Shown here one piece after another: positions 19,701 to 52,600 of a stretch of 64,000 nt of DNA. This DNA is from Branchiostoma floridae (lineage: Eukaryota; Chordata; Leptocardii; Amphioxiformes; Branchiostomatidae): positions 20,842,187 to 20,906,186 of the forward strand of contig NC_049987.1 of the NCBI RefSeq assembly GCF_000003815.2, written 5' to 3'. Made by a program: the position numbers and the translations under genes. The notes under the pieces are model-generated. The model was not told the DNA's origin and did no database searches. It saw only the letters and a list, made by a program, of their open reading frames with translations. The first letter of the stretch is position 1, and every line of letters starts with the position of its first letter.

Positions 19701-22700
19701 CCATGATCTGCCTCAGGTCAAAGGCTGACGATGGTGGACTACTGGGTCTGGACAATACAAAAGACTCTTAGTTAACCATATCCAGTTGCTTGAGTAACTA
19801 CTTTTTGGTGTATCTTATTACCTGGATGTCTAACCTACATCGACGTACTCTTAGTTTTAACCTGGTGATCCATGTAACATTTCAAATATTTGTGGCATAC
19901 AGTATTCAATTACTTTAATTTGCATTCTTCCTGCTGCCCAACCTTGTAATACTCACCTCACCTGTAATACTAATAGCAAGGTAAAGGTAAAGGTATTTTT
20001 GCATATGAACAGAAGCTATAAGGATAGTAGGTTGTATCTACGGTACAGTGTTGGAATGAAGAGCCCATCCCACCCTTCTACTGCTTTTTACCCCAACCAA
20101 AGTCAAGTGCCCATTTACCACGGACACTATGTCTAGCCAGGAATTGAATCTCGTGTCCGCCTAGCCACTTGACCATTCAAAGCCACAACCAAATTTGGAG
20201 CCAAAAGAGTATTTCATCAGGGAGAACATTAGATTAAGAAAGACAGTACAACTTTGCTGCTTCAAACAGATTCTAGAAGTCCAATATCTGTATGAAAATC
20301 TGTTGGACATCCACCTACATCTTCAAGTCTATTAGTTTGCAAATACCAATTTTCCTGTTTCAGCTTTAAGATGGAATAGAGACAAATACAATGTTAAGGT
20401 TTAGTCTTGAAGAACCATTTCAGTCCCTACCCTGCCCAAGTCCATGGTCCCTTCTTTGGCACAGCACCAGGTTGCATTGTGGGTGGGGGAGAGGTGCATT
20501 CTGGGATGGATCCATCCTGGCTGGATGTCTCGTGATGTGAGGAGGCATCACTCTCAGGAGGGGCTAGATTCTGTGGCACAAAATGGGTCTTAATTTCATA
20601 AAATAACTTGTTGTTGCCTTACACATGGCCTATAGAATGGCTGGTTACAAAAGCTGGGGAGCTGCAAATTTGAAACTTTGACACCTTAAGGACATACAAT
20701 TTCCAACATCATAAGACAGTGTCACTCATGAAAGATAGTGGATTCTGCCTGAAACGTCTGACCGTTTTCAAAAATCATATCCAGATGCTTGAGTAATTGC
20801 TATTGAGCATAGGACAGTTAGCCTGTGTTTACACAATCTCCCATGGTGTTTTAGTCAGGCTAATAGGACAGTCTTCTGAGACCTTTCCTTTGATATAGTT
20901 TTTAGGTTGTACTTATTTCTTGGTATCTTGTATCTTCGAATGTATTGTAATGTGTGGCACAAGACACCAGCATTTGACGTCTGTTTTTCCACATCGCTAA
21001 CCTCTTTCTCTGGATCTCCATGTGAACTTCTCCCATCATCCTCTCCTGCAGACAGGTCATGAACTCTGACCCCCTCAAAGCTCCTGCTCAGCAGGTCAAC
21101 GTCTTGCTGGTCACCTTTCTCTGGGCTGTATCCCGGCAAGAGGTCAGACAGGTTCAGGCCTTTGGTGCTGTCCGTTCTTTTACGTGTGCGTTTCTTGGGT
21201 TTAGCCTGCAAATAGAAACATGTAGCTTCAATTAACAAAAAAGCTTAACAGCACTAAGCTAGCAAAGAATTTCATAAACTATCACAACCATTACATAACC
21301 ATATCATTGACATGCCTGTAGATTGCAGTTTCTTCAAATAAGAAGAATATTGGGGGATCAGCCAAAAAAATCCACTCACTCCTGCCCAAGCCTACTCACA
21401 CAGCAAAAACTTGTGCTACAAATCCATCAATATCCAGCAAAGAACCTGCCAAATTCAGGGAAAAGGTCACTGAACACCTGAGGAACAAGCAATGACTGCA
21501 CAGCATCAGTTCCTGGGTGTTTTACCCAACAAGAGGGGTGTTGCATAGTATTAATCCAGATCCAGAACATATAGTAATAAAAAAATAAAGTTTCATCATA
21601 AGAATACAGTACAAACTGCATGTAGAAACCATACCTTGGCTTTCTTCCATGCTTGGCTGGGGGTCCCACTGACAGGCTCGTGGTTGCTGCTGGTGCTGTC
21701 TCTGTGTCTGCGCTGGGAGAACCCGCTGTCCTCAACACTGGACAGGAACAGGGAAAAAAGGAAAGACAGTGATCTTGATCCCGTTTTAGCACACTGTAGA
21801 AATAGTCTTCCACTGGTTGTGACAGAGAAGAAAAGATGCTTTTCATCCCATATGTGAGAACACCTTTACATGGCACATTTTCAGTTTGTCCTTTTTACAT
21901 GTTCTAAGACTTTAGAGCTTCTGTTTTGAGTAGTAACAGATGAAGAGGATCAATCCTAGCACTATCATTGCCAATCTCCCGTACCTCATGAATATGCCAA
22001 AAAAGAGTTACTCAAGCAACTTGATGTGATTTTGGAAATGGTCAGACAATTCAGACACCATCCGCTGTCTTTCACTGAAAAAAAGGCATTGGATGGTGGC
22101 TGAAACGTCTGACCCTTTCCAAAATCACATCCAGTTACTTGAGTAACTCCTTTTTAGCCAATCTTACGTCTAACCTTCATCGACGTACCTTATGAAAGGT
22201 TCATCAGTGAATGACTGGGACATCTCCATGCTGAACTCCTCCTCATCCAGACTGTCCTCCTCTGTTGCTATGGTGCTCAGGTCGGGACCGTCCATATAAG
22301 GAGTGATGACCCTGCGACACATGGCAGGGATGGACCCACGGTACGCAGCACCAAGCTCATCCAGCACATCCTCGCTTAACACCTCCAGGCACCTGGGGGG
22401 GTTGATGCTCGTATTTACTAAGGTTGAATCATAAGTCACAAAAAAATGAAATACAATAAATTTGCAATCTCTAGCGATGCAAGCTTGAGTCCGTCTAGAT
22501 AATGTAACTTGACAAACAAAAAAGTTTTAAAAAACAATCTGTGAAAAGTATTGTACAACCAGAAACAAATCTGAATTGGCAATGTGTCCAGTGCCGGAAA
22601 CCATAAAATATAAGCAAAAATGACCCTCTGCCTATGACTTGGCTCCTGACCTAAAACATGGCCTATGACCTGACCTATGCCCAATGACCTAGCCCTTGCC

Positions 22701-25700
22701 CTATGACCCGACCCTTGCCACATGACCTGACCTATGCCCTATGGCCTAGCCCTGCCCTATGACCTGGCCCTTGCCCTATGACCTGACCTTGCCTCCAGCA
22801 GAGGAGCCATGTTGAGACAGATGAACTGGGTACAGGCTGCCTTCAGCTGCTGGGAGTTGAACATGGAGGCAAACTCCAACAGCTCTGCAACGTTCCTCAG
22901 GGTGACTGGGGAGAGATGGGAATAGAGTTACTAGTAGTGCTTACCCTTAAACTGCCAAACCCAGATATATCCGGCACACATATACATGCCCTGTGTGCTG
23001 TGGGATATATCCGGGATAGCGTATTCCCCCGAAGTAGGAACTTTGTGTGCACATAGCGCACGAACCCCAGAAGTTAGGGACTTCGGCCTTGTTCAACTCT
23101 ACTAACTAACCAACAAACTGTGCTACCTTCTTTTTGGAGGTCAGCGGCCAACCCTGGCACTTACAGCATTTTATATGGCTGAAACTCTGGCAGTTTAAGG
23201 GTTAATCATTTATCACATCATTATGATGCCAGGGTGTCAGCACTCCTGAGGAGGAACCCTTCTTTTGATTGACCGACTTTTTCATTGTGCTTGTTCACAA
23301 AGAAGAAAATAAAGGGCAAACTCGTAAAATGTTAGAATGGACCCTTTTAGGGGGCTGAAAATTCCATTTTTTCTTTTGGCCCTTGCTTTGCGAAAGACAA
23401 CAGATGATGATGATTATGAATATGACCATTTTGAAAAATGACAATAATTGCATTGCTATGGTGTCCAAAGCTTGAAAGTAAAAAGTATCTTTCCGAAGCC
23501 CATCTACAAGTCATAAACATATCACTTTCAAGTTAGTTCAAGGTTAGGAGAAACTTGTGAACACATGCCTTCATACAAGTTCATAAGCATACATAAACAA
23601 AGAAACTTACTGAGGTTGACGAGTGAGACTTCGCACATCTCCTTCAGCCTGGTGATGAGCAGTCGGTCAGCTGTGGTCAGCACGTTACACAACAGCTCCA
23701 TGTTCTGGGACTCACGGACGGGCCGACAGTCGTCTGTGTACAGGAACTCTAACACATGGGACAGGACGTCTGAGGGGATGGGCAGTTCTAGTGGGGTGTC
23801 TGCAGACGTCTGGAATATGGCACAGTTTGTTGGTTAGTTAGTATGTTACACAGGATCCGACAGTCGTCTGTGTACAGGAACTCTAACACATGGGACAGGA
23901 CATCTGAGGGGATGGGCAGTTCCAGGGGGGTGTCTGCAGATGTCTGGAATATGGCACAGTTTGTTGGTTAGTTAGTAGAGTTTCATTCTCTGTGACTCCC
24001 GCACAGGACGACAGTCGTCCGTATACAGGAACTCTAACACATGGGACAGGACGTCTGAGGGGATGGGCAGTTCCAGGGGGGTGTCTGCAGAGGTCTGGAA
24101 TGTAGCACAGTTTGTTGGTAAGTTAGTACGCTACACAGGACTTTCATGTTCTGGGACTCGAGCACAGGCCGACAGTCGTTTGTATACAGGAAATCTAACA
24201 CAAGAGCTCCATGTTCTGGGCCCACTACAGACAGTCAAGTCCACTTACTCAGTGTTTTCCTTCCTTACTATTAGACTTGGTGATGGGAAGTCCCAAATTT
24301 GCTAAGAAAAATACATGTAGAAGTAAACTCAGTCCCATCAACCCCAGCTGCGACACCAACTAGATAGCTTTTGAAGTAGAGCCAGTCATTTCTGCACTGA
24401 TGAACTGAGGAAAGAGACAGAAGGTCACCGAAGTGTCAGCAATTGATCATGATTATAGACTGCTTAATTGTGTACAAAGAACTTTGCTATCCATGACAGA
24501 GAAGCATCAACCTGAATGAACTCTTAGGATCTGTTAGCATTTGTTTTACTAGTACTTGCCAAATGACCGTAACATATTGTATGTGATTAATCCTATAACA
24601 GACTTCACACAATCAGGGAGGCTTCAAGCTATTTCCTCTATACCTGGTATGTAAGTTTGACGTTGGTGAAATGAATAGATAAATAAGTTCTATTCCAGGT
24701 GAGAGAAGAAGAACACCCACCTCTAACCATCCTGACCCCAGCATACTGTGGAAGTACTCCAGCTGGGCCACCAGCACACACTTGTGACACGGCACCTCCT
24801 CCCCATCCACACACCTGATGGCCAGGTCGTACAGGTGGGAGCTTTTAGTCCGGGTGAATCTGAAGCGCTGGGTCTGTTTCTTCTCTGTGATCTCCACTTT
24901 GGAACCCACCAGCTTCACCCCTTCCAACCTGTTCAAAACAAAAGTGTCAACTTCCTGGCAATTCTTACATATAAAAGCTTTCAAATTTAAATTACCGGTA
25001 CTACAAGTTGTACAAATAATCATTTCATCGTAAGGACCACCCGGCCAATGCGACCACTTGTTGGTGGTTTGATAGGTAATTTTTCCTGTCAACAGTTGGC
25101 ACAAAAAAATAAAGAATACTGTCTATGATGACCATCTGTCCATATAGAACAAATTTCATTGTTCCCAAGTGGCTTGTTCAAGTTGTTGGGCAGTTTTGAC
25201 CATAAAATCATTAATGTAGCTCATACATCCCTGAATCCCGGACACTAAAAACTTACTTTTTTGCCAGATTTTGAACCCCAAACCTCTTGGCAGTGTTCTG
25301 CAGAACCTTGACAGGGTTTGACGAGTCGTCCTCAGCCTGCTGGTTGGACTTGGCCTCCTTAGACGGCTTGTTCTTCTGCTTCTGAGACTTCTTCCCTTGC
25401 GAGTACACACTGAAGGCTGACTGGTGAGCGATGTCGTCCAGAGAAAACTCCCCAAATTCTCCATTCTTCACGCCATTCAACATCCCTGTGTCTCCCCCAC
25501 CTTTGCCCTCTGACCCTTCAACTTTGATCTTGAACTTTGGCCTATAACCCTGGGTCAGCAGGTCACAGGTGTCAGAGTAGATGAACTGGAGCAGGTTCAG
25601 GAAGATGTGATGGTTGACTTTCTCAACCTTGACAACTTCTTTGTTGACCTTGAGGACTTCTGAGTTGTTGGAGTCGGAATTCTCAAGATTGTCGGAGTGG

Positions 25701-28700
25701 AAAAGTTTGCGGAAGTAGTCGCTACGGGAGGCGAGGATAAACTTGTGTGCTGGGATGGACTGGCCATGGAGCTAGGAAGGATAAAGATTACCTTTCTTGT
25801 TAATCCACACTATCTACTAGTATTTGAAAATCTGATACGTTTTAGATTCTTAGACAACATTCTGCAATTGATAGTACTTTCTGCTATGTACCCATACAAT
25901 GACATCATGGATGTTTTCACCTGTATGATAACATCATTAGTGGTGTAATGGCAACTGTAACCACCTGAATGAAGACATCATGGATTTTGTCTGGGCAACT
26001 GTACCCACCTGTATGATGACATCATGAATGTTGTTACGGCAAATATACCCACCTGTATGATGACATCATGGATGTTGTCATGGCAACTGGCCTCATCCAT
26101 GAGAGTCCTGAAGGTTTTCCCCATCTCCGATGGACTGATTGTCGGCACCTCAAGTAGGCTGCGGGGGAAATACAACACTCATGTATATCTAAAAGTTACC
26201 ATTTGTTGTATCAATGACTTCATTAAAGAAAAATCCTTTCTGAACAGTATACAGGGCATTTTGTAATTTCTCGTTTACAGGCATACAATCTGCGTTTAGC
26301 ATTGCAACTAAAATAGATTGATTGATTGAAAATCATTGGTAAGCTCAAACACAGCACCCCTGCATAATTACTGACTCCTCCCCTTACCTCGCCTTTGGGT
26401 CCACCTGCAGAGCAACAAAGTTCCTCCCCTTAGGGTCAGAGGTCACGCCCGTTGCACGGTGGATAAAGGGGATCCTCTCCAGCTGAACAGCGTCTTTTTC
26501 TTCCTTCTCGAACTTCTCAAGAACCGCCGCCAACGAGAAGGAGTCAAACGAGGACGAAGTCTTGTCTTTGGCTTCAGTGCCTGAAGAATGAAGTTGCAAG
26601 AAAGAAGACAGAAATTGTAACACAATGTTTGGTGATCTGAAAATGAAACTTCATCAAGACTTTGATGGAGCCCCTGGTTCTAGTTGAATACGAGGCATTG
26701 TCATTTTGGTTTGGCTAAAGTGCCACAGTGCCAAGGAAGTGGAACCTTTTTAGTGTCAAGCAAGATCAATTGTGTGTAAAATCTAAAGTAAAAAAAAATA
26801 AATTGTGTATCATGTCTTTCTTTCTGTCGTATAAAGGTTATACCGCTAGTGCTTAGTGACTAGCAACACAAAACAACTCTAACGTAGATGTTCCCCACAG
26901 CTCATTTGAAAAAGATGGTGAAGGAAACTTTCTTTCAGGTCATTTTAGCTGACTTATAATTTGATTACTTCTAAGTTTGCATACCAGCATGTCATTATCA
27001 TTATCTCTTGACTTTGTTATTTATTAGCGTTTTGTAGTCCTGTACGTGTGTCTTTATTTTGTTTATGAAGAAGACCGCAATAAGCAGTGCCTGCTTTCTG
27101 TCTAATCCTCTTTAAAAAAATGTGAATAAAAAAAAAAACTTTCTACATTTGCTACCTACATCATTACATGATGATTTTCAAACCCTCCATGCTATCCACC
27201 ATCCTCACCTTTTGCGGTTAAAGACTCCTGTTTTTTCTTGAGATTGACAAAGCTGCCCGTGAAGCCCTCCCCCTGCGGCGTGCACAGGACGATCCCGTTC
27301 TTGTGCACGCTCACATCCGTCACCAAGAGGTCTCGGTGGCGGAAGTTCCACGAACAGCGGTGGAAGGACGTGTAGGAAGGTCTCCAGACGTACACCTGGG
27401 TACAGGAGAACATCTTAGGCTAGACCAGGGCTCTTGCCAGCTCGAATTTTTTTCCGTCAGCCAATTCGCATTGTCGCAAAAACCGCGAAAATTAAGTTAG
27501 AAAGATGGAACTGAGACCTTGAAAATGGGCTTTTAATGAGATTATCGTATGCCAAAGGGCGCCGACACACATTGTCAACAATCATAACAATAGCAAGACA
27601 AACAGTGTGTGGCTTTTACGGCCGTGGACAGCGTCCCCAAGCTGCCTGTAGCTTCCACCAAGAATTTTTGTCCGTCAAGGTCGACGGATTGGTTAAAAAA
27701 AATTTGTCACATGCAGCAAATTTCCGTCAATTGACGGAAAAACGGACGCTGGCTAGAGCCCTGGGCTAGACCATCTGATAAATTACTTTTTAAACTGTGC
27801 CTGTTGATAACTTCAACTGACATCTCTAAGAGACTTCCTACCTGTAGACCCCTATTTTTTAAGGACTCTTTTTTCTTTCAAAGTTTTATTTTCCTGCAAG
27901 AGACATACATTAAGGTATGTCCAGCTAGCCAACTAGCCAAAGGCTATAAAAACGGGCTAGCTCTGGGGCCAGCTCAAGACTTAAAATCTTGGTAAAACAT
28001 AAGGTGAAATCAAGATGGAAATTAAGGGCTGGGAGTAAAACTTAAATCTGACTATATCAACAGAATCTGTCTTAAAAATGGCTGTTTACACCTGAAATAT
28101 GCCAATCTTATCACATAACAGATTACATTGGGAAACATTTCATTACACACACAAGGGAAAAGCTGGACAACTAGAAGACCAATGAAACAGCTCCTAGCGT
28201 GTTTAAACTATGCGATAAGTCATGTAAGGACTGACCTTATTGGCTGAGTTGAGCGCCAGCACAACTAGGTCATCGCCCCCCTGTTCCTGTAGAGTGTCTC
28301 TGTCCAGACTGGAGTCCAGGTGTCCACCAAACACTGCCAGCTGTGTCAGGTGTAACTGCCTGCAACAAACAATACCACTACATCAAGTACTGTACATGAT
28401 GTTTCAATGCATCTGCTGTGTATTTAGCACCAAGTGTATGATTAGAGGGAAAGACACCAGAAAAAGTAGAAATGTTGGTTTTCAAACAAGGTGCTCTCAG
28501 AACGTTGTTGTCCTCACATCACAAGACTGTTCAGCCAATGCTGTGTGGCTGGTATGAATTAGGATTTTACTATTATCAATATTGAACAACAGAAGCCAAC
28601 TCTATATCCTCCTAGAATTTAGGCCTTCCAAATGTACATATACTCCTAGAATATAGATAAGGGCTTTCCAAATTCAAAGTCACCACCAGTGAGTGATATT

Positions 28701-31700
28701 TGAAGGATTGACTGACTTTGAAGCGATCTTTCTGCACTGATAGTCTGTCAGCAGGAACACGTCATAGTTGTCTCCCTTCTGTGTCGCGATGACCGTCGCC
28801 CCGTCGCTCGCTGTTACCATGGCGATGTGAATGTCCTTCAGATTGAGGGCGGAGACCAGGTGAGGCTGCACCTGTGTCCTGTCACCTTTAGGCAGGCCTG
28901 GAGACATGGGCAGTATACTTGTTTTTATGAGCGTCATAAAATCACAATAATCTGTAAACTTTATATGACAACAAACCATCTGAGAGCTGCTATAGAGGTG
29001 GTGTTTTCATTGCGACCTATCACCTTTGGGCAGGCATGGAAACATGGGCAGTACAGTTAAGCTTGTTTATAAGAAGAACGTCATAAACTCACCACAATAG
29101 AGAGATTACAGGACAGAGTTCTGGGTTCTGTAAACTTTGGATAGACTCCTAAAAATAGGCCTCTAAGAAATGCTATAGAGTTGGTGTTTTCATTTGAATG
29201 ATCAACTGAAAAGATAACAAAAAGATTTTGGGGGAACCCAGAAATCTTGTCACATACAGTAAATTTTTATAAAGTTTGGGGAAAGATCTAGATTTTGTAG
29301 CAATCCAGTATTTGATTTTCATTACTAGTATATACTAGGTCTTGGCTTACCTTGTCTACAAAAAGTAAAAAAAAAATTTTCTGTTTTATCCTACCGAGAT
29401 GGCCAGCGTTAAGCCCGCAGGTGTAGACAGCATCATCTGTCCACAGTATTGTGTGGAACCGCCCTGCTGCCACACCCTTTATATGTTTGTTCCGCAGGTA
29501 CTTTGGGGCAACCTGCAGAGAAAACAGACATAGATTTTTACTCTATCAAGCATTATGACCTATATGGATATTCAAGAACTTGTCATTTTTGACACACTAT
29601 CCTGAGATGCTGATGCGCTACTGTCATTGACCAGTCAGGGTTACGTTAGTTTCAGTCCTTCCCACTCTAGATGGTGCATAGGGCAGCAACCATCTGTAGC
29701 CCTCGAGCCACACAGCTTTTGTGCAATTACTACCGAACGAGGGTAGTCCACTGTTGGTCTCGTTTTAATTACATGTAACATTCCCAGACTTTTACTTTGA
29801 CTTTCCCAGGTGCTGAACTGAGACAGCAGTATGTACCATGACTCAACTTACAACGTACTGAATGTGACACTGCGACACTCACCTGTCTGGGCGTGGTGGA
29901 GAATTTAGGTGCAGGCTGCACCCCCAGCTGGTGGCAGTAGTTCAGTCCAAAACTGAACACTGTGTTTCTGGGAACATAAAAAATATTATTACTGTGTTTG
30001 TTCATTTATTTGTACTACAAAAAATAGATGTGAATAGTTTAATCAGGTTGATACTTAATAATAATGAAACTCTTTTTACACAACCACAGCTTTATTTTCT
30101 TTATTTTGCGCCTGTAAGCAGTGACAGATATTGCTGCAGTACAATGTGAACGAGTCAGAATCGGTGAAAAATGCGGTGAAAATAAAGCTGTGGTTGTTGA
30201 AAGAGTCTCTTTATTCATGAAAATTGAAATGACATAGCTTAATGGACAGTATGAAAAAAACATGCTGTGTGGCTTATAGTAAGCCCTCCTTCTATTATTG
30301 ATTATGAAAATTGATTATATTCTAACTGACAAAATTGATGGACTAAAAAAATCCTCAAAACTTGACTAAAAGGACATCTATACATCAGTAATATACGACG
30401 AAGACTGCTACTGGTACTAAGGAACCAAGCATTTAGGTAGAAAATGATTTGTAACAGGGTTATAAGAAAGTTGTAAGAGTGAACATACTCATCCGTAAGC
30501 ACCACAGTATGATCCCTGGCTGCTGCTATCTGGATACACGTCTGAGAGGCAAGACCCTCTACTAAAGTGGGCACCTAGAGTACAAAATGTTGTGTTTAAT
30601 AAAGGTTTATGCACTACTGGATTTGATTTCAACACAAAAGATTCTATTGTCAAGTATTGATGCATGTATGACAAAATTTTAATTGCCTTTTATATCAAGT
30701 TATGTTCTATTTTTGTCATAACTTATTACATTGTAACTATATTTGAATTTAAAGAGATTACAAATTGTGAGTAACTGGTGTTGATTTCAGTTAGGAATCA
30801 AATGTTAGTATGGCCCACTTCGGTTAGTATTGACCATGGCTAAATCCTAATTGATATCAACCCTAAAGCTTTGACTATGACTAAACAGTCCTATATGAGA
30901 GTAACAATCTCTGCCACATAGGGCACATCTTAGTCAGTGTAACACAAACTCTGCTGTCCAGGGCTGTAACTGGCCCCTCCCCAGGGCCGGCAGATTGGGC
31001 GGGCTGCTATAAGCGAGATTTATTCAGGCTAGGCACATCTGTAAGCTGACTCAGGTCTGTTGCAGAGTTCAGGCCTGTTCAGAGAAATAAAATAAACAGC
31101 CTACATAACTTACCATGTAAGTCTGCTCACTGCCGTGGCCTAGCCTTCCACCCCGGCCATGCCCACAGGTGTACACCCTCCCACTGTGGGACAGGAACAC
31201 TGTGTGGAACTTGCACATGACAACCTGCAAAACACAGGGGGTGTCCATGATCATATCAACAACTATTTCCAAATGCCTTGCTGTTAAGGGGAGGTCAGGA
31301 AATGACATTTTTTTACCTATAAAGCTAAAATCCTACTTTTTAAAGGTAAACTGTCCCTTTCTGGTATATTTGGGGCAGACTGGGAAAACTTAGACTAAAA
31401 AAACAACTCAAACGTAAGGCCAGCTGTTTTGTTTTTCCAACTTGCAAGTGCTTGGGACTCTTTTAAGGATTTGTCTTCCACAAAATCAAATCTGTGCTTT
31501 TTATCTCTAGTTAGTCTCTAACAAGGAACTGAACTCACCTGAGCGACACTGACTCCCTCCTTAAACAGGTGTTCAACTCACCTGTGCAACACTAACACCC
31601 TCCTTAAACAGGTGTTCAACTCACCTGTGCGACACTGACTCCCTCCTTAAACAGGTGTTCAACTCACCTGTGCAACACTAACACCCTCCTTAAACAGGTG

Positions 31701-33225
31701 TTCAACTCACCTGTGCGACACTGACACCCTCCTTAAACAGGTGTTCAACTCACCTGTGCAACACTAACACCCTCCTTAAACAGGTGTTTAACTCACCTGA
31801 GCGACACTGACCCCCTCCTTAAACAGGTGCTCCACAGGTTCAGGATGTTGCCTGCTCTGCTGACTGCCGTGTCCCAGAGTGAAGTTAGTGTTGGTTCCCC
31901 AGCTGTAGGCATCTGCTGGGTCTGTCATGTACAAGTTTTAAAAATGAGATCAGACTTGGACAGGTTTCTTAGGGTTACATTTTCCCCAGTGCCCTGTGTG
32001 TAGCATCATCCTGCCAGACTGCCTGGTTAGGTGCTCAATTTTTTTTGTTAACTCAACTGATGCAAAACTTGTATCAGTCTAGAACTGGATGCCTCAAGTC
32101 CTTCACCTAAATTTTGCCTAAAATATGTAATTCATAATACATGTACTAAGCCTGAGTTGTTTCTGCCTGCAAACTTCTTTTCTTACTTTTTAAATCTAAC
32201 TTGGTTCAAATCTGTATGGTTTGTTGTTACTTTACTAACAGTGTTCTTTTAGTGTGCATGGTTTGTTAGTTAATTAGTTTGTAACATCACCTGTGGTTCT
32301 AAACTCCACATAGGCTGGCAGGTCTCTCCTGATGAGGTCAAGTGGGGTCATGTCTTCCTTGTCCTGGGCCTGCAGACTGGCAGAAGCCTGGACAACAAAC
32401 GAATATGTTATGTATCAATCAGTAGCACAAAAATATCTCTAGACAGATCTTTAGACAAACCACTCCCCTAAAATCGTAGAAATGAAAAATGCAATTTTTG
32501 CAAGAGGGCATCCTGAATTAAGTTTACAATTGCATGGCCTAAAATCATAGCTTTGTACCCATACCTAATACCATTGATACTAGTATATTCACTCCATCAG
32601 TCCATAGGTAGCCCTATCCAGTACTCCATCAAAGGAAATATGGATGGATACTTGGAGAGAAACGGGGAGAAAATAAGGCTGAAATCTGATGGTTACCAGG
32701 CCAATAAACACGCCACCTTACCCTGATGGTGGCAGGGCACATGCCACCTGCCCGTAGTACACAGCAGTTTACTTCATATCTAACTCATGTTAGCTTTAAG
32801 ATTTCTGAAAAGCTTGGCATTTTCAAAATTCAGCATGTTTGATCAAGGATCTGTAAGTTTGTGGTCATCTGAAATTACATAAAGTTGCAAATACAGCTTA
32901 CCCTGATAAGTGGCAGGGCACATGCCACCTGCCCGTAGAACACAGCCCTGTGCAGCGCCGTCCAGCCGGACTCCCAGTCCTTCCTCCCCACCTCCACACG
33001 GCGCAATCCCAGCAGCCACTCCACCACGCGCCACTTCCCGCAGGACGCCGCCACGTGCAGCGCCGTGCGACCGTGCTCGTCAAACACGGTCGCCGAGTTG
33101 TGGCAGTTTGCGAAGAACGACTTGACGTGAGCGAGGGTTCCCTGCGTGATCACGGAGAACAGGTCCCTCGCGTGCCGGAACGAGCGACATCTCGGCGTGC
33201 AGTCAGGCTCCAGGATCTTCTCCAT
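16791..33225 (-). CDS. IBTK: IBTK: ankyrin / RCC1 / double-BTB protein
   Basis: Homologue of the inhibitor of Bruton tyrosine kinase, in vertebrates also a CUL3 substrate adaptor. 26 coding exons in transcription order: 33225-32902, 32387-32291, 31921-31797, 31224-31114, 30574-30489, 29967-29883, 29512-29395, 28897-28717, 28359-28236, 27395-27209, 26581-26398, 26158-26053, 25771-25257, 24928-24721, 23809-23611, 22905-22788, 22392-22189, 21737-21635, 21205-20966, 20570-20431, 19747-19529, 19197-19051, 18633-18502, 18337-18230, 17546-17414, 16910-16791. The sum is 4314 bp, 1437 aa, with every junction in phase. Domains: ankyrin repeats about 47-108 (GRTALHVAASCG, SGWTALHRAVFYG), RCC1 repeats about 140-400 (YSWGTNTNFTLGHGS), BTB1 about 566-655, BTB2 about 776-885, VITPYMDGPD, KKRTRKRTDS, C-terminal IEERAMQELLEHY. 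An upstream in-frame ATG at 33279 is possible; 33225 fits the family N-terminus better. Exon 21 encodes a TAAAQK repeat. Confidence 0.96.
18036..18184. mobile_element. hAT-like MITE (cagggctgtctcca family)
   Basis: 149 bp with inverted termini cagggctgtctccag and ctggagacagccctg. Flanking 8-mers gtataagg and gtgtaggg agree at 6 of 8 positions, as expected for an old hAT insertion. It lies 45 bp from IBTK exon 24. A related interior ('gagcccatgttgtt', 'gtccaaacaagcaaattt') recurs at 48570-48815. Confidence 0.75.
18882..18971. mobile_element. Short palindromic MITE (tagcctggtat family), copy 2
   Basis: Begins agcctggtatccgga, contains gagtctcttctgtcctctcc and ends ctgaataccaggct. About 90 bp in an IBTK intron; same family as 1470-1578. 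Confidence 0.75.
19560..19670 (-). repeat. Coding tandem repeat TAAAQK in IBTK exon 21
   Basis: Repeated DNA 'ctgcagctgttttctg' blocks encode QKTAAAQKTAAVQKTAAAQKTAAA. This is a low-complexity, Ala-rich stretch in the poorly conserved C-terminal half of IBTK. Confidence 0.85.
19777..19848. repeat. Dispersed repeat (agttgcttgagtaact family), copy 1
   Basis: 'atccagttgcttgagtaact' followed by 'taacctacatcgacgtac'. The same two blocks close the repeat at 22008-22188. Intronic in IBTK. Confidence 0.7.
19975..20180 (-). mobile_element. tRNA-derived SINE, minus orientation
   Basis: On the minus strand it opens with a tRNA-like segment, box A-like AAGTGGCTAGGCGG and box B-like AGATTCAATTCC. It ends in a short tandem tail, acctttacctttacctt. 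It lies in the IBTK intron between exons 20 and 21. No target-site duplication was identified. Confidence 0.6.
22008..22188. mobile_element. Palindromic MITE (gttactcaagcaact family) abutting IBTK exon 17
   Basis: Inverted arms 'agttactcaagcaactt' with 'gattttggaaatggtcagac', and 'gtctgaccctttccaaaatc' with 'ttacttgagtaact'. After the right arm it continues to 'cttcatcgacgtac', whose last bases are the splice donor of IBTK exon 17. Other copies or fragments are at 19777-19848, about 20755-20810, 42926-42990 and 49449-49480. Confidence 0.8.
22620..22787. repeat. ~20-bp minisatellite starting at the IBTK exon 16 donor
   Basis: Roughly nine degenerate units of the type 'cccttgccctatgacctga'. 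On the minus strand the array starts at the exon 16 donor (gcaag^gtcaggtcataggg) and later units repeat the same junction-like motif 'caagggccaggtcataggg'. Confidence 0.85.
22944..23201. mobile_element. piggyBac-like MITE
   Basis: Termini CCCTTAAACTGCC and GGCAGTTTAAGGG are perfect inverted repeats. The right flank is TTAA and the left flank CTTA, a one-base departure from the TTAA duplication expected of piggyBac. 258 bp, non-coding, in an IBTK intron. Confidence 0.65.
23857..24215 (-). repeat. Three partial duplicates of IBTK exon 15
   Basis: Copies at about 23857-23977, 23980-24128 and 24141-24205 repeat the acceptor-side half of exon 15 (23611-23809) plus upstream intron ('tctggaatatggcacagtttg'). 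They retain attccag-type acceptors but lack the exon's 3' end and donor, and the copies have diverged. They are treated as exon debris, not functional exons. Confidence 0.85.
25897..26052 (-). repeat. Copies of the IBTK exon 12 tail plus splice donor
   Basis: Downstream of the real donor at 26052/26053 the intron contains three more blocks resembling 'atccatgatgtcatcatacag^gtgggt', at about 26011-26050, 25962-26010 and 25903-25960, plus a decayed fourth. Each keeps a GT donor-like motif and an open frame over the copied part. Confidence 0.85.
27418..27771. mobile_element. hAT MITE with perfect 8-bp target-site duplication
   Basis: Element 27426-27763 (338 bp) has inverted ends cagggctct.gccagc and gctggct.agagccctg. 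It is flanked by identical 8-mers ggctagac at 27418-27425 and 27764-27771. Terminal CAGGG plus an 8-bp duplication are hAT hallmarks. It is inserted 22 bp upstream (minus sense) of IBTK exon 10's acceptor region. No transposase is present. Confidence 0.9.
28878..29200. repeat. Tandem duplication covering the IBTK exon 8 acceptor
   Basis: The segment from 'tgtcacctttaggcaggcctgg' through 'ggtggtgttttcattg' (28878-28998) recurs in diverged form at 29022-29200 ('tatcacctttgggcaggcatgg' ... 'gttggtgttttcattt'). The second copy has lost the AG acceptor. Confidence 0.75.
30066..30209. mobile_element. MITE with ~32-bp inverted termini
   Basis: Left arm contains caaccacagctttattttc; right arm contains aaaataaagctgtggttg. 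The arms continue outward as 'gaaactctttt' and 'aaagagtctc'. 144 bp in an IBTK intron, superfamily not assigned. Confidence 0.8.
31539..31796 (-). repeat. Six extra 43-bp copies of the IBTK exon 3 tail plus donor
   Basis: Exact 43-bp periodicity: copies begin at 31539, 31582, 31625, 31668, 31711 and 31754, and the seventh is the real exon end at 31797. Each unit is 33 bp of exon tail (HLFKEGVSVAQ) followed by gtgagttgaa. Two variants alternate, so the higher-order unit is 86 bp. Confidence 0.97.
32712..32767 (-). repeat. Copy of the IBTK exon 1 tail plus donor
   Basis: 'cttaccctgatggtggcagg'...'cacctgcccgtagtacacag' copies the end of exon 1 and its donor at 32893-32947 ('cttaccctgataagtggcagg'...). 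It lies 180 bp downstream in intron 1 and retains the GTAAG donor. Confidence 0.85.
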
Positions 33226-49624: not shown

Positions 49625-52600
49625 ATGGCGCAGGGCGTGGCCAGTAGCCATGGCAACCTGCGCATGTTCGAGGAGCTGTGTCGGCGGTTCCAGGAGGTAC
49701 CGCAGGCCGTGGTCGTGGAGGTCATGAGGAAGGTAGGTTGGAACTTGTCGGCAGTTGATTATAGTGTACAGCTAACGGCTATAACTCAAACCTTTGTCAA
49801 ACCAGAACAAGATTGTTCTCACACGCTGTTGGCCTTCTGATGAAACAGCTGTAAAAAACACTTGCTAGCCTGATGATATCCTGGAGAGTGGTCAGGGCAG
49901 CCTCCAGCTGTTGAACAGTTCACAACAAACAGCTGTAATTCCATCTTTTACTTTTGTCAACCAGGAAACAACTTGTGAAGAAAAATCTTTTTCTCTCACA
50001 TTATTTTACTTTTAGAATGGAGCCTTTTTCATTAAAGGGGTAGTTGTAGACAATAGTTGCTAACCTGGTGTACATGCTATGCCAGAGAATGGTTATGCTG
50101 TTTAGCCGATACAGATTGTTTGGCCCATATATTCACTATGTTGTATTCACTTTGTAATAACTGTAATGATAGGCTTTCTGTCACTGATTCCCAACTTAAA
50201 ACTCCGTTTTTACTCTTCAGAACGGGAGCAACTTTGAGCTGTGCTGCCAGGACCTTCAGCAGGAGAGTGGGAAGTACCTGTACGGGGACTTCCAGATGGC
50301 GGGGGACAACGCCATGAGTAATCACATGAAGCAGTTAACCATAGGAAAACCTGACGACCACAGCCAGAGACACCCGTTGCACCACTGTGCAAGCACTCCG
50401 GCGTTCATGCCTACAGGGAACCAACAGGGAACTTTTCACGAGGACGTTCACACGGCGCCCGTCTTGCCGACGGGGCAGAATCCGTTTCTTGCGTCCATGA
50501 GATCGCCGCAGCACGTGCCGAGATACGGTCCGACGGTGCAAATGTACGCGGCACAGTTTCCTCAAGGAGGGAACCATTACGTAGGGACAATGCCTCCAGG
50601 GTACGGCCAGTCTTCAGGCAGGAGTACTCCGAGCCCTGCCCCCACCCCTCCTCCAGCCAACCAACAACAGATCTCCCCACAGACCCCACAGACCCCACCC
50701 CAGGTCCACTCCCCACCCCCCTCACAGATGCACACCCCCTCTCCCCAGGAACAGAGACCCTCCCGTAGTCAAACGAACTCTCCCTTTCCCCCCATGATGT
50801 ACCAACAGCTCACCTCTCCTCAACAACAACTTCCCATGTACTTCCAGCAACTACCCTACCCGATGATGTCCCCACCCCAGGGATACCCTCCCCAGGGGTC
50901 CTTCCCCTCCCCCCAGGGGCAGTATGGAGGGGTCTTCACCTCCCCGCAGGGGCAGCTCCCCCCACACCCCACGGTCGTGCCGGGATTTTACCAGCAGTAC
51001 GGACCTCCAGGGGGCCAGCAGGGGCAGTTCATGTCGGGTCAGTGGAACCAGGTTCCGCCTGGGTATGGCACCATGTACGACAGACGGATGTCCGGAGGGA
51101 GCGAGAGTTCAGGTCAGGGGTCACCTTCCCATGTTCCCCAGCTCCCGCCCTGGAACTTCCAACAGCAGCAGCAGCCGCCACAGCAACAGCAGCAGGCGTG
51201 GCACGGAGGTCAAGGTCAAATGTTTCCAAGGGCGCACAGCCCGTACCACAGAACGGACTCCCCGCGTGGCGGGCATTTGGACACCCACTGGTCGCCCAAA
51301 CATTCGCCAAGGAGCCAGAGTCCGAGCCCGGGTAGGGGAGGGTGGACGGGCGGACAATACGGCGCGACACAGGCGCACCAGTACACCCCTCCTGGGCAGC
51401 ACGGCCAAGGTCGCCACCACGGCCACTACCAGCGCTCGCCCTCCTCCCAGAACCAGTATTCCAGTCTGAACCTGGCGCACGGTTACCACCCGTCCCAGCA
51501 GCCCTCCAAAACACAGTCTCCGCGCAGCTCTCTCGTCTTCACCCAGCCTCTACACGTCCCCACGCAATCAACCTACTCCTCCCCCGGGCGACCGGCCATG
51601 TCAATAACAACACCAACGTCCAATAACTCCACACCGACCCCGACAAAAACGCCCAGTCAACCCAACCTGTTAACGCCGGAGCATCCGGAAGAGCTGCGCT
51701 CGGAAACGGGAACGCCCCCGCCCCCCATCCTCCCGGTGATCTCCCCTGCCTCCAGCCACAGTAGCCTGTCGTCAGCGGAGAGCAGAGACAGAGGACAGAG
51801 GCCCAGCACCAGTAATGACAACTATGCATACGAGCAGGGTAAGACTGGTGACGCTGATGCTCTGCTGGCATCTACAAGGTTTCTGTGGTACTGATACTTG
51901 ATTTAAGTTTGCAAGGAAGAAGGGGATGGGGTTGTTTTGAATTTTCAGTAGATAGCTCACAGCAAAATTGAATGTTTAAACCAGCACAGATATTTCTCAG
52001 TTTACAGCAGTTAATGAGCTGTACCAATTTTGATAGTCTATATAGAGTGTGCTCACAGATGTTATCTGTTATGTAGCAATAGACCCAGCATGGTTGTCCA
52101 TCAAATTGGCTGTTAAACCAATCAGAGTAAGAAAATTTTGCTTCGCATTTCTCCGCATTGTAGCTTTGACTACAATAGGCAGTATAAGGAAATCTGTCTG
52201 ATTGGTTCACAGCAGTTCAAAGCTCTCATTGGCTCCTGACAGAAAAAGAACAAAGAAGAAGGACACACCAGCAAAAACAATATGTTTTTCCGTATCAATG
52301 AAAACATAAATATAATCAATTGAACCACCTGAATTAGTTTCCTGGTATTTTCCTACCCCAGCATTGCTGCTGCACCAGAGAGCCAGGATGGAGAAGTTGC
52401 ATAAAGACTGGAACGGGGAGAAACAGAGACTAGCGCAGGTCCGCGCCGAGGTGGACGAGATGGAACGTGACCTGCAAGACCGCAGAAAACGTAACGCAAC
52501 CTCCAAATGTCCCACGGTAAGTAACGCAACCTCCAAATGTCCCACGGTAAGTAACGCAATATGAGATGCCTCAAGCACCCCTCCCTGTAAAAATATACCT

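Follow-up and report, generated by a model that had tools for sequence, protein, structure and literature searches.

Why should copies of a coding sequence that lie within an intron vary as though they were still translated? The question is raised by a minus-strand gene in a 64-kb stretch of the Branchiostoma floridae genome (the window), whose exons match Ank, RCC1 and BTB domains, a set that we take to mark IBTK. One exon in the RCC1 part of this IBTK-like gene is followed, inside its intron, by further copies of its own end together with the splice donor (array A, Table 1). An earlier note on this DNA had described seven copies with perfect 43-bp spacing that differed only at synonymous sites, and had offered three explanations: several equivalent donors, continual conversion with the real exon, or a very young array.

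The repeat structure is as described. Array A consists of seven 43-bp units without indels at exact spacing (31532-31832, minus strand). TRF called 31532-31829 (43 bp x 6.9, 92% matches, score 512), and direct-repeat spacing was 43 bp six times over, giving the head-to-tail structure of a minisatellite. Each unit comprises 36 nt of exon and 7 nt of donor and straddles the authentic exon/intron boundary of a coding gene. The exon (31921-31797) ends in ...EHLFKEGVSVAQ/gtgagtt (slash, exon/intron boundary), and CAG/GTGAGTT is the same in 7/7 units. The exon beyond the intron begins at 31224 with GTT GTC ATG TGC AAG (VVMCK) and has an RCC1 match. No acceptor was evident by eye inside the unit.

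The claim of purely synonymous variation holds in part. Across the 33 bp from CAC to CAG, the four variable codon positions (GGG/GGT/GGA, GTC/GTT, GTC/GTT and GCT/GCA) are all third positions and all silent. The first codon, which the earlier note had missed, is GAG in the exon; five copies have the silent GAA, and the one closest to the exon (31747-31789) has AAA (Glu>Lys). The full 36-nt exonic part thus has six silent changes and one amino-acid change, or 6/7 silent against 25% expected (P = 0.0013), a value to be read knowing that the array was picked for its silent property and that amplification makes its copies non-independent. The alternation of two variants, also claimed earlier, is present at the two GTC/GTT sites, where the order A-B-A-B-A-B-A makes an 86-bp higher-order unit. 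Separately, a CAGGTG-agttgaa-CACCTG inverted repeat lies at the unit junctions of 31532-31832 and could let each donor pair with the following unit, except for the distal donor, which is without it. RNA folding was tried and set aside, with a fold too weak to build on (z = -2.1 for 431 nt; four pieces of two units each gave -1.0, -1.4, +0.9 and -1.8).

Table 1. Exon, intron and repeat units of array A, and the other boundary arrays of the window.
Feature	Position	Strand	Basis or remark
Authentic exon, RCC1 part of IBTK-like gene, 125 nt	31797..31921	-	open frame; acceptor acatgacag before 31921; RCC1 match, E = 2.4e-7; last CAG at 31797
Unit c1, true exon end (36 nt) and gtgagtt (7 nt)	31790..31832	-	sequence
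Unit c2, variant B (GGT GTT GTT GCA), first codon AAA	31747..31789	-	sequence
Unit c3, variant A (GGT GTC GTC GCA)	31704..31746	-	sequence
Unit c4, variant B	31661..31703	-	sequence
Unit c5, variant A (GGA GTC GTC GCA)	31618..31660	-	sequence
Unit c6, variant B	31575..31617	-	sequence
Unit c7, variant A (GGA GTC GTC GCT), distal array end	31532..31574	-	sequence
Intron holding array A, 572 nt	31225..31796	-	sequence; donor first, then six further copies
Second boundary array of IBTK-like gene (array B), acceptor and 29 codons of BTB exon	23723..24128	-	exon copy 23723-23809; intronic copies start 23943 and 24094
Third boundary array of IBTK-like gene (array C), 44-bp donor units x4, decayed	25918..26089	-	repeat scan
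Fourth array of IBTK-like gene, 19-bp units at exon end (...MAPLLEA)	22662..22793	-	exonic part too short for scoring
Fifth window array, perfect 30-bp repeats, 2.3 copies	52491-52559	+	apparent exon end, donor ACG/GTAAGT

Arrays of this kind were reportedly named mirages in a 2002 paper on Adh. Array A belongs to this described amphioxus class, known from the Adh3, globin, PGBD5 and TnC genes (PMC3087553, PMC3902484, in the passages considered). Amphioxus mirages have in common with it a tandem minisatellite unit over the exon/intron boundary in which the splice signal is repeated, and in those passages they undergo concerted evolution and occur in both donor and acceptor forms, as do the arrays here. 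Unstable length, whether among individuals or among somatic cells, is a further mark of the class. The model of Rogers derives intron gain from tandem duplication of AGGT segments (as cited in PMC3087553). Every unit of array A likewise carries AG/GT, raw material for a new intron, but there is no sequence sign of any unit serving as a new exon. Tandem exon duplication with alternative splicing, as in Dscam, also repeats coding pieces within one gene; the units of array A differ in being frame-shifting 36-nt exon ends with a donor. They do not form exons of their own with the frame kept, as tandem duplicated alternative exons do.

Could the copies nevertheless be used? Downstream donors might be 5′ splice sites of equal standing or under regulation, and the copies might be translated or serve as poison segments. 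The seven identical CAG/GTGAGTT junctions would suit such a role, as would the respect for codons seen in many arrays (below). However, 43 mod 3 = 1, so the copies shift the frame and, as had been noted, cannot be read as continuous coding sequence. Read-through past the true donor gives V-S-stop (GTG AGT TAA), and whichever downstream donor of array A is used, the third added codon is an in-frame stop. In most other arrays, too, the unit length is not divisible by three (for example 23, 35, 38, 43, 44, 47, 58, 59 and 62 bp; exceptions are L024, 39; L030, 51; L033, 36; L036, 42; L055, 36; and F, TRF period 102), and there are copies with frame-shifting indels in L036, L039 and L047. Regular splicing is reported to be apparently undisturbed by the Adh3 and globin mirages (PMC3087553, in the part considered). 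Equivalent donors are disfavoured because use of a downstream donor adds GTG AGT TAA and because most other units are not multiples of three, and we consider any use of the copies very unlikely.

Array A is not the only boundary array in the region. Eight were recognised in 264 kb (the window plus L002-L021, with one scan limited to periods of at least 25); two of those in the window, D (short) and E (with identical copies), went unscored. For acceptor arrays B and H the scoring was manual: all distinct changes within the 29 codons of array B are silent (8/8), as is 1/2 in array H. Array C has 3 silent and 11 amino-acid changes by hand, and 3 and 10 by the automatic rule. Counting by hand gave 31/56 silent with A excluded and 18/42 (expected 9.9, P = 0.0045) with B and G excluded as well. 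The hand count, whose details do not all agree with the automatic one, is kept apart from it.

We then drew donor arrays from the whole genome (513,431,437 bp). Searching for three tandem CAGGTGAGT at a unit length of 29-59 bp gave 1045 overlapping places, and the reversed pattern gave 0; tandem CAGGTAAGT (units of 34-64 bp) gave 74 against 2, and tandem AAGGTGAGT 32 against 8. Many of the places listed in the CAGGTGAGT and CAGGTAAGT searches are accounted for by a dispersed foldback-like element of about 2 kb with an inverted terminal stretch of about 110 nt (by eye; L045:1-1980, G000:C1:29239600-29241580), whose arms are tandem arrays of a 51-bp unit bearing motifs that resemble an acceptor (TTACAG) and a donor (CAGGTGAGT, CAGGTAAGA).

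The CAGGTGAGT set comprised 11 arrays, among the places listed on contigs C1-C2, judged by eye to lie outside this dispersed 51-bp family; seven were counted, and L025, L026, L027 and L029, without a recognisable exon, were dropped. All 74 CAGGTAAGT places were listed, and 12 arrays outside the family were taken. Eight of these were counted, after L034 (exonic part about 8 nt) and L037, L038 and L040 (no exon seen on the strand read) had been dropped; for L042, inspection led to a reading of the opposite strand (2 silent, 0 other). All nine listed arrays of the AAGGTGAGT set were counted, with the first donor by rule and the longest open frame, whereas frames in the other two sets rested on open frame and protein likeness and were not the longest in L023 and L031. 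Copies were located by their last 7 nt and extended backwards without gaps, and each distinct change was counted once. The expectation is the silent fraction for that exon with transitions weighted twofold. The CAGGTAAGT and AAGGTGAGT listings displayed unit parts, including silent variants, before arrays were taken, and the CAGGTAAGT expectation was set down alongside retrieval. P values assume independent distinct changes; amplification and exchange within arrays make them somewhat less so.

Across the 27 donor arrays other than A, 71 of 119 distinct changes are silent where 29.8 were expected (P = 1.1e-15; 4.9e-13 with transitions weighted fourfold). Wrong-frame controls on the same arrays fall below expectation, at 23/113 (30.1 expected) and 21/114 (27.7 expected). 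By set, the counts are 12/28 for the census arrays C, F and G (expected 6.1, P = 0.0098), 6/11 for CAGGTGAGT (2.7, P = 0.033, or 0.056 with transitions fourfold), 32/46 for CAGGTAAGT (12.5, P = 2.7e-9) and 21/34 for AAGGTGAGT (8.5, P = 5.6e-6, nine arrays). Arrays without a silent excess (silent:other) are C 3:10, F 4:5, L023 0:1, L028 0:2, L047 1:3, L048 0:1, L049 2:3 and L054 0:1; of these, the decayed arrays C and F look nearly neutral. In the CAGGTGAGT and CAGGTAAGT sets, exons with Pfam matches (L022, L030, L032, L035, L039, L041, L042, L043 and L044, the matches of L032, L042 and L044 being under the curated cut-off) have 31/45 silent. Matches in array exons include DNA-PKcs, SMC, folate carrier, PI-transfer protein, dynein motor and BACK domains; a relevant match was absent in the scanned exons of L024, L028, L033, L036, G, L047 and L049 (L023, L031 and F lay outside the scan). 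Some silent changes sit at first codon positions (CGG>AGG, CTG/TTG), and therefore the constraint acts on the amino acid.

The codon-respecting pattern is thus neither chance nor private to array A. It appears to be a general property of mirages, with no earlier description found in the literature surveyed. The passages of PMC3087553 and PMC3902484 considered make no mention of codon-respecting variation in intronic copies, and no report of it was recognised among titles and abstract openings, most subscription papers being outside this reach. Another feature of these arrays concerns their origin: in L032, L039, L041 and L044, the donor (GTGAGTA or GTAAGT) and the exon stretch at the unit start have a few bases in common (for example GAGTACC, AAGTCTACC, AGTAC; by eye), as if the duplication had begun through this short homology of the 5′ splice site with the exon.

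If the arrays were simply young, the differences would be a few random mutations, and some arrays are indeed perfect or nearly so (52491-52559; L023, L024 and L025; L054). Youth, the third explanation offered in the earlier note, accounts for scarce amino-acid changes, though not for abundant silent ones. Random mutations would be about 25% silent, against the 71/119 observed and with the wrong-frame controls below expectation, and the divergence between copy and exon, pooled over 18 arrays (A and the AAGGTGAGT set left out), is 0.145 at silent sites and 0.015 for amino-acid-changing differences. We therefore regard youth as extremely unlikely. Array A itself has a mean silent divergence of 0.39, above simulated values. 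In the adenosylmethionine decarboxylase-like exon of L044, 6/6 intronic copies have GQD in place of the exon's GQN; these copies may preserve another state of the exon.

Changes were also sorted by how many copies carry them, at sites that at least three copies cover. The silent:other ratio is 25:4 for changes present in half of the copies or more, 13:6 for those in two or more copies but less than half of them, and 24:32 for those private to one copy (private against the rest, 38:10, Fisher P = 2.6e-4). Old variation is filtered, new variation much less so.

Strung-together alleles would respect codons too, and an assembly artefact of this kind might be expected in a highly heterozygous animal. 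Heterozygosity in two B. floridae parents was about 3% (PMC12862219, in the part considered), and one globin mirage was apparently aberrantly assembled in the genome draft (PMC3087553, likewise). That same globin mirage, rebuilt from trace reads, nevertheless still contains repeats (PMC3087553), and re-sequencing of the PGBD5 mirage is said to argue against assembly error (PMC3902484; both from the passages considered). The exact 43-bp period is kept over seven units without allelic flanks, and the same design recurs in many genes. The pooled silent divergence of 0.145 also exceeds the allelic value of about 0.04, silent diversity in B. floridae being given as 0.0397 in the section of PMC12862219 considered. 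We judge an artefact unlikely.

Mechanisms were compared by simulating a 12-codon exon end in which amino-acid changes were lethal and silent diversity was 0.04. With no exchange, the silent fraction was 0.26. Concerted evolution within mirage clusters is described in the passages of PMC3087553 considered, and the alternating variants of array A show higher-order amplification; both would suit sister exchange or intra-array conversion within one chromosome, combined with selection on the exon. Simulated two-way conversion within one chromosome, however, gave silent fractions of only 0.28-0.45, with a copy-to-exon silent divergence (pS) of 0.02 at the fastest rate, and letting 1% of events occur between homologues left the fraction at 0.44 and pS at 0.01. 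We find exchange confined to one chromosome rather unlikely. Our first candidate mechanism, a single-time capture of exon alleles, was poorly supported: unequal crossover alone moved in the right direction and reached a silent fraction of 0.40 at most. One-way flow out of the exon was likewise rejected, at 0.27-0.46. A copy that had been intronic since its split would have about half of its divergence unconstrained, a misfit with a ratio near 0.1.

Only with two-way exchange between homologues did the simulations yield a silent bias together with high silent divergence. With 2Nc = 200-800 and 6-7 units, the simulated silent fraction was 0.68-0.87, copy-exon pS 0.18-0.28 and exon piS 0.17-0.25, with shared changes mostly silent and private ones mixed. 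The observed silent fraction of 0.60, the pS of 0.145 and the contrast of shared 38:10 with private 24:32 fit this regime roughly, and not the others. Twelve units at 2Nc = 200 gave a silent fraction of 0.41, and one exchange in ten between homologues gave 0.66 with pS 0.038; these fall short, and therefore a fit requires that exchange be frequent and take place mostly between homologues. With an Ne of about 1.7 million, calculated from piS 0.0397 and u 5.89e-9 (PMC12862219), the model would require roughly 6e-5 or more exchange events per array per generation. As capture is poorly supported and one-way donation fails, two-way exchange between homologues is preferred. The conversion option of the earlier note is thus supported in this narrower form, while conversion within a chromosome and one-way outflow from the exon fail in the simulations. 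By eye, silent sites in arrays B (window 23723-24128) and G (L008:8670-9221) are more variable than the intronic parts of their units, a difference that the model does not predict.

The reading we favour, and think probable though by no means assured, is that array A is a mirage whose exon end and intronic copies form a two-way exchange pool, mainly between homologues; the exchange itself we infer from one assembly. The minisatellite would have arisen when the end of an exon was duplicated in tandem together with its 5′ splice site, the first donor presumably being the one used. Exon end and intronic copies would then behave as one pool in which short stretches are swapped both ways, mainly between homologous chromosomes, probably by unequal crossover or conversion. 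Protein-changing mutations arising in an intronic copy would be lost on reaching the exon, and silent ones would circulate. With about n pool members per chromosome, silent diversity should be several-fold higher than in a single-copy exon, and the copies should therefore resemble diverged but working coding alleles. Fresh mutations in a copy would still be nearly neutral, and old arrays that no longer exchange would decay.

Array A itself adds another member to the mirages. Of wider reach is the finding that codon structure persists in the intronic copies of many genes. This weakens the assumption that codon-respecting variation marks translated sequence. Whether mirages at large are exchange pools seems to us an evenly balanced matter; if they are, introns would act as reservoirs of silent variants, exon ends on the array side would be several-fold more diverse at silent sites, and dN/dS of the copies would be near 0.1 genome-wide. 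Mirage copies offer a read-out of exchange between homologues from a single assembly, and the exchange regime predicts inflated silent diversity at mirage exons; scans of amphioxus for dN/dS or diversity would be misled by it.
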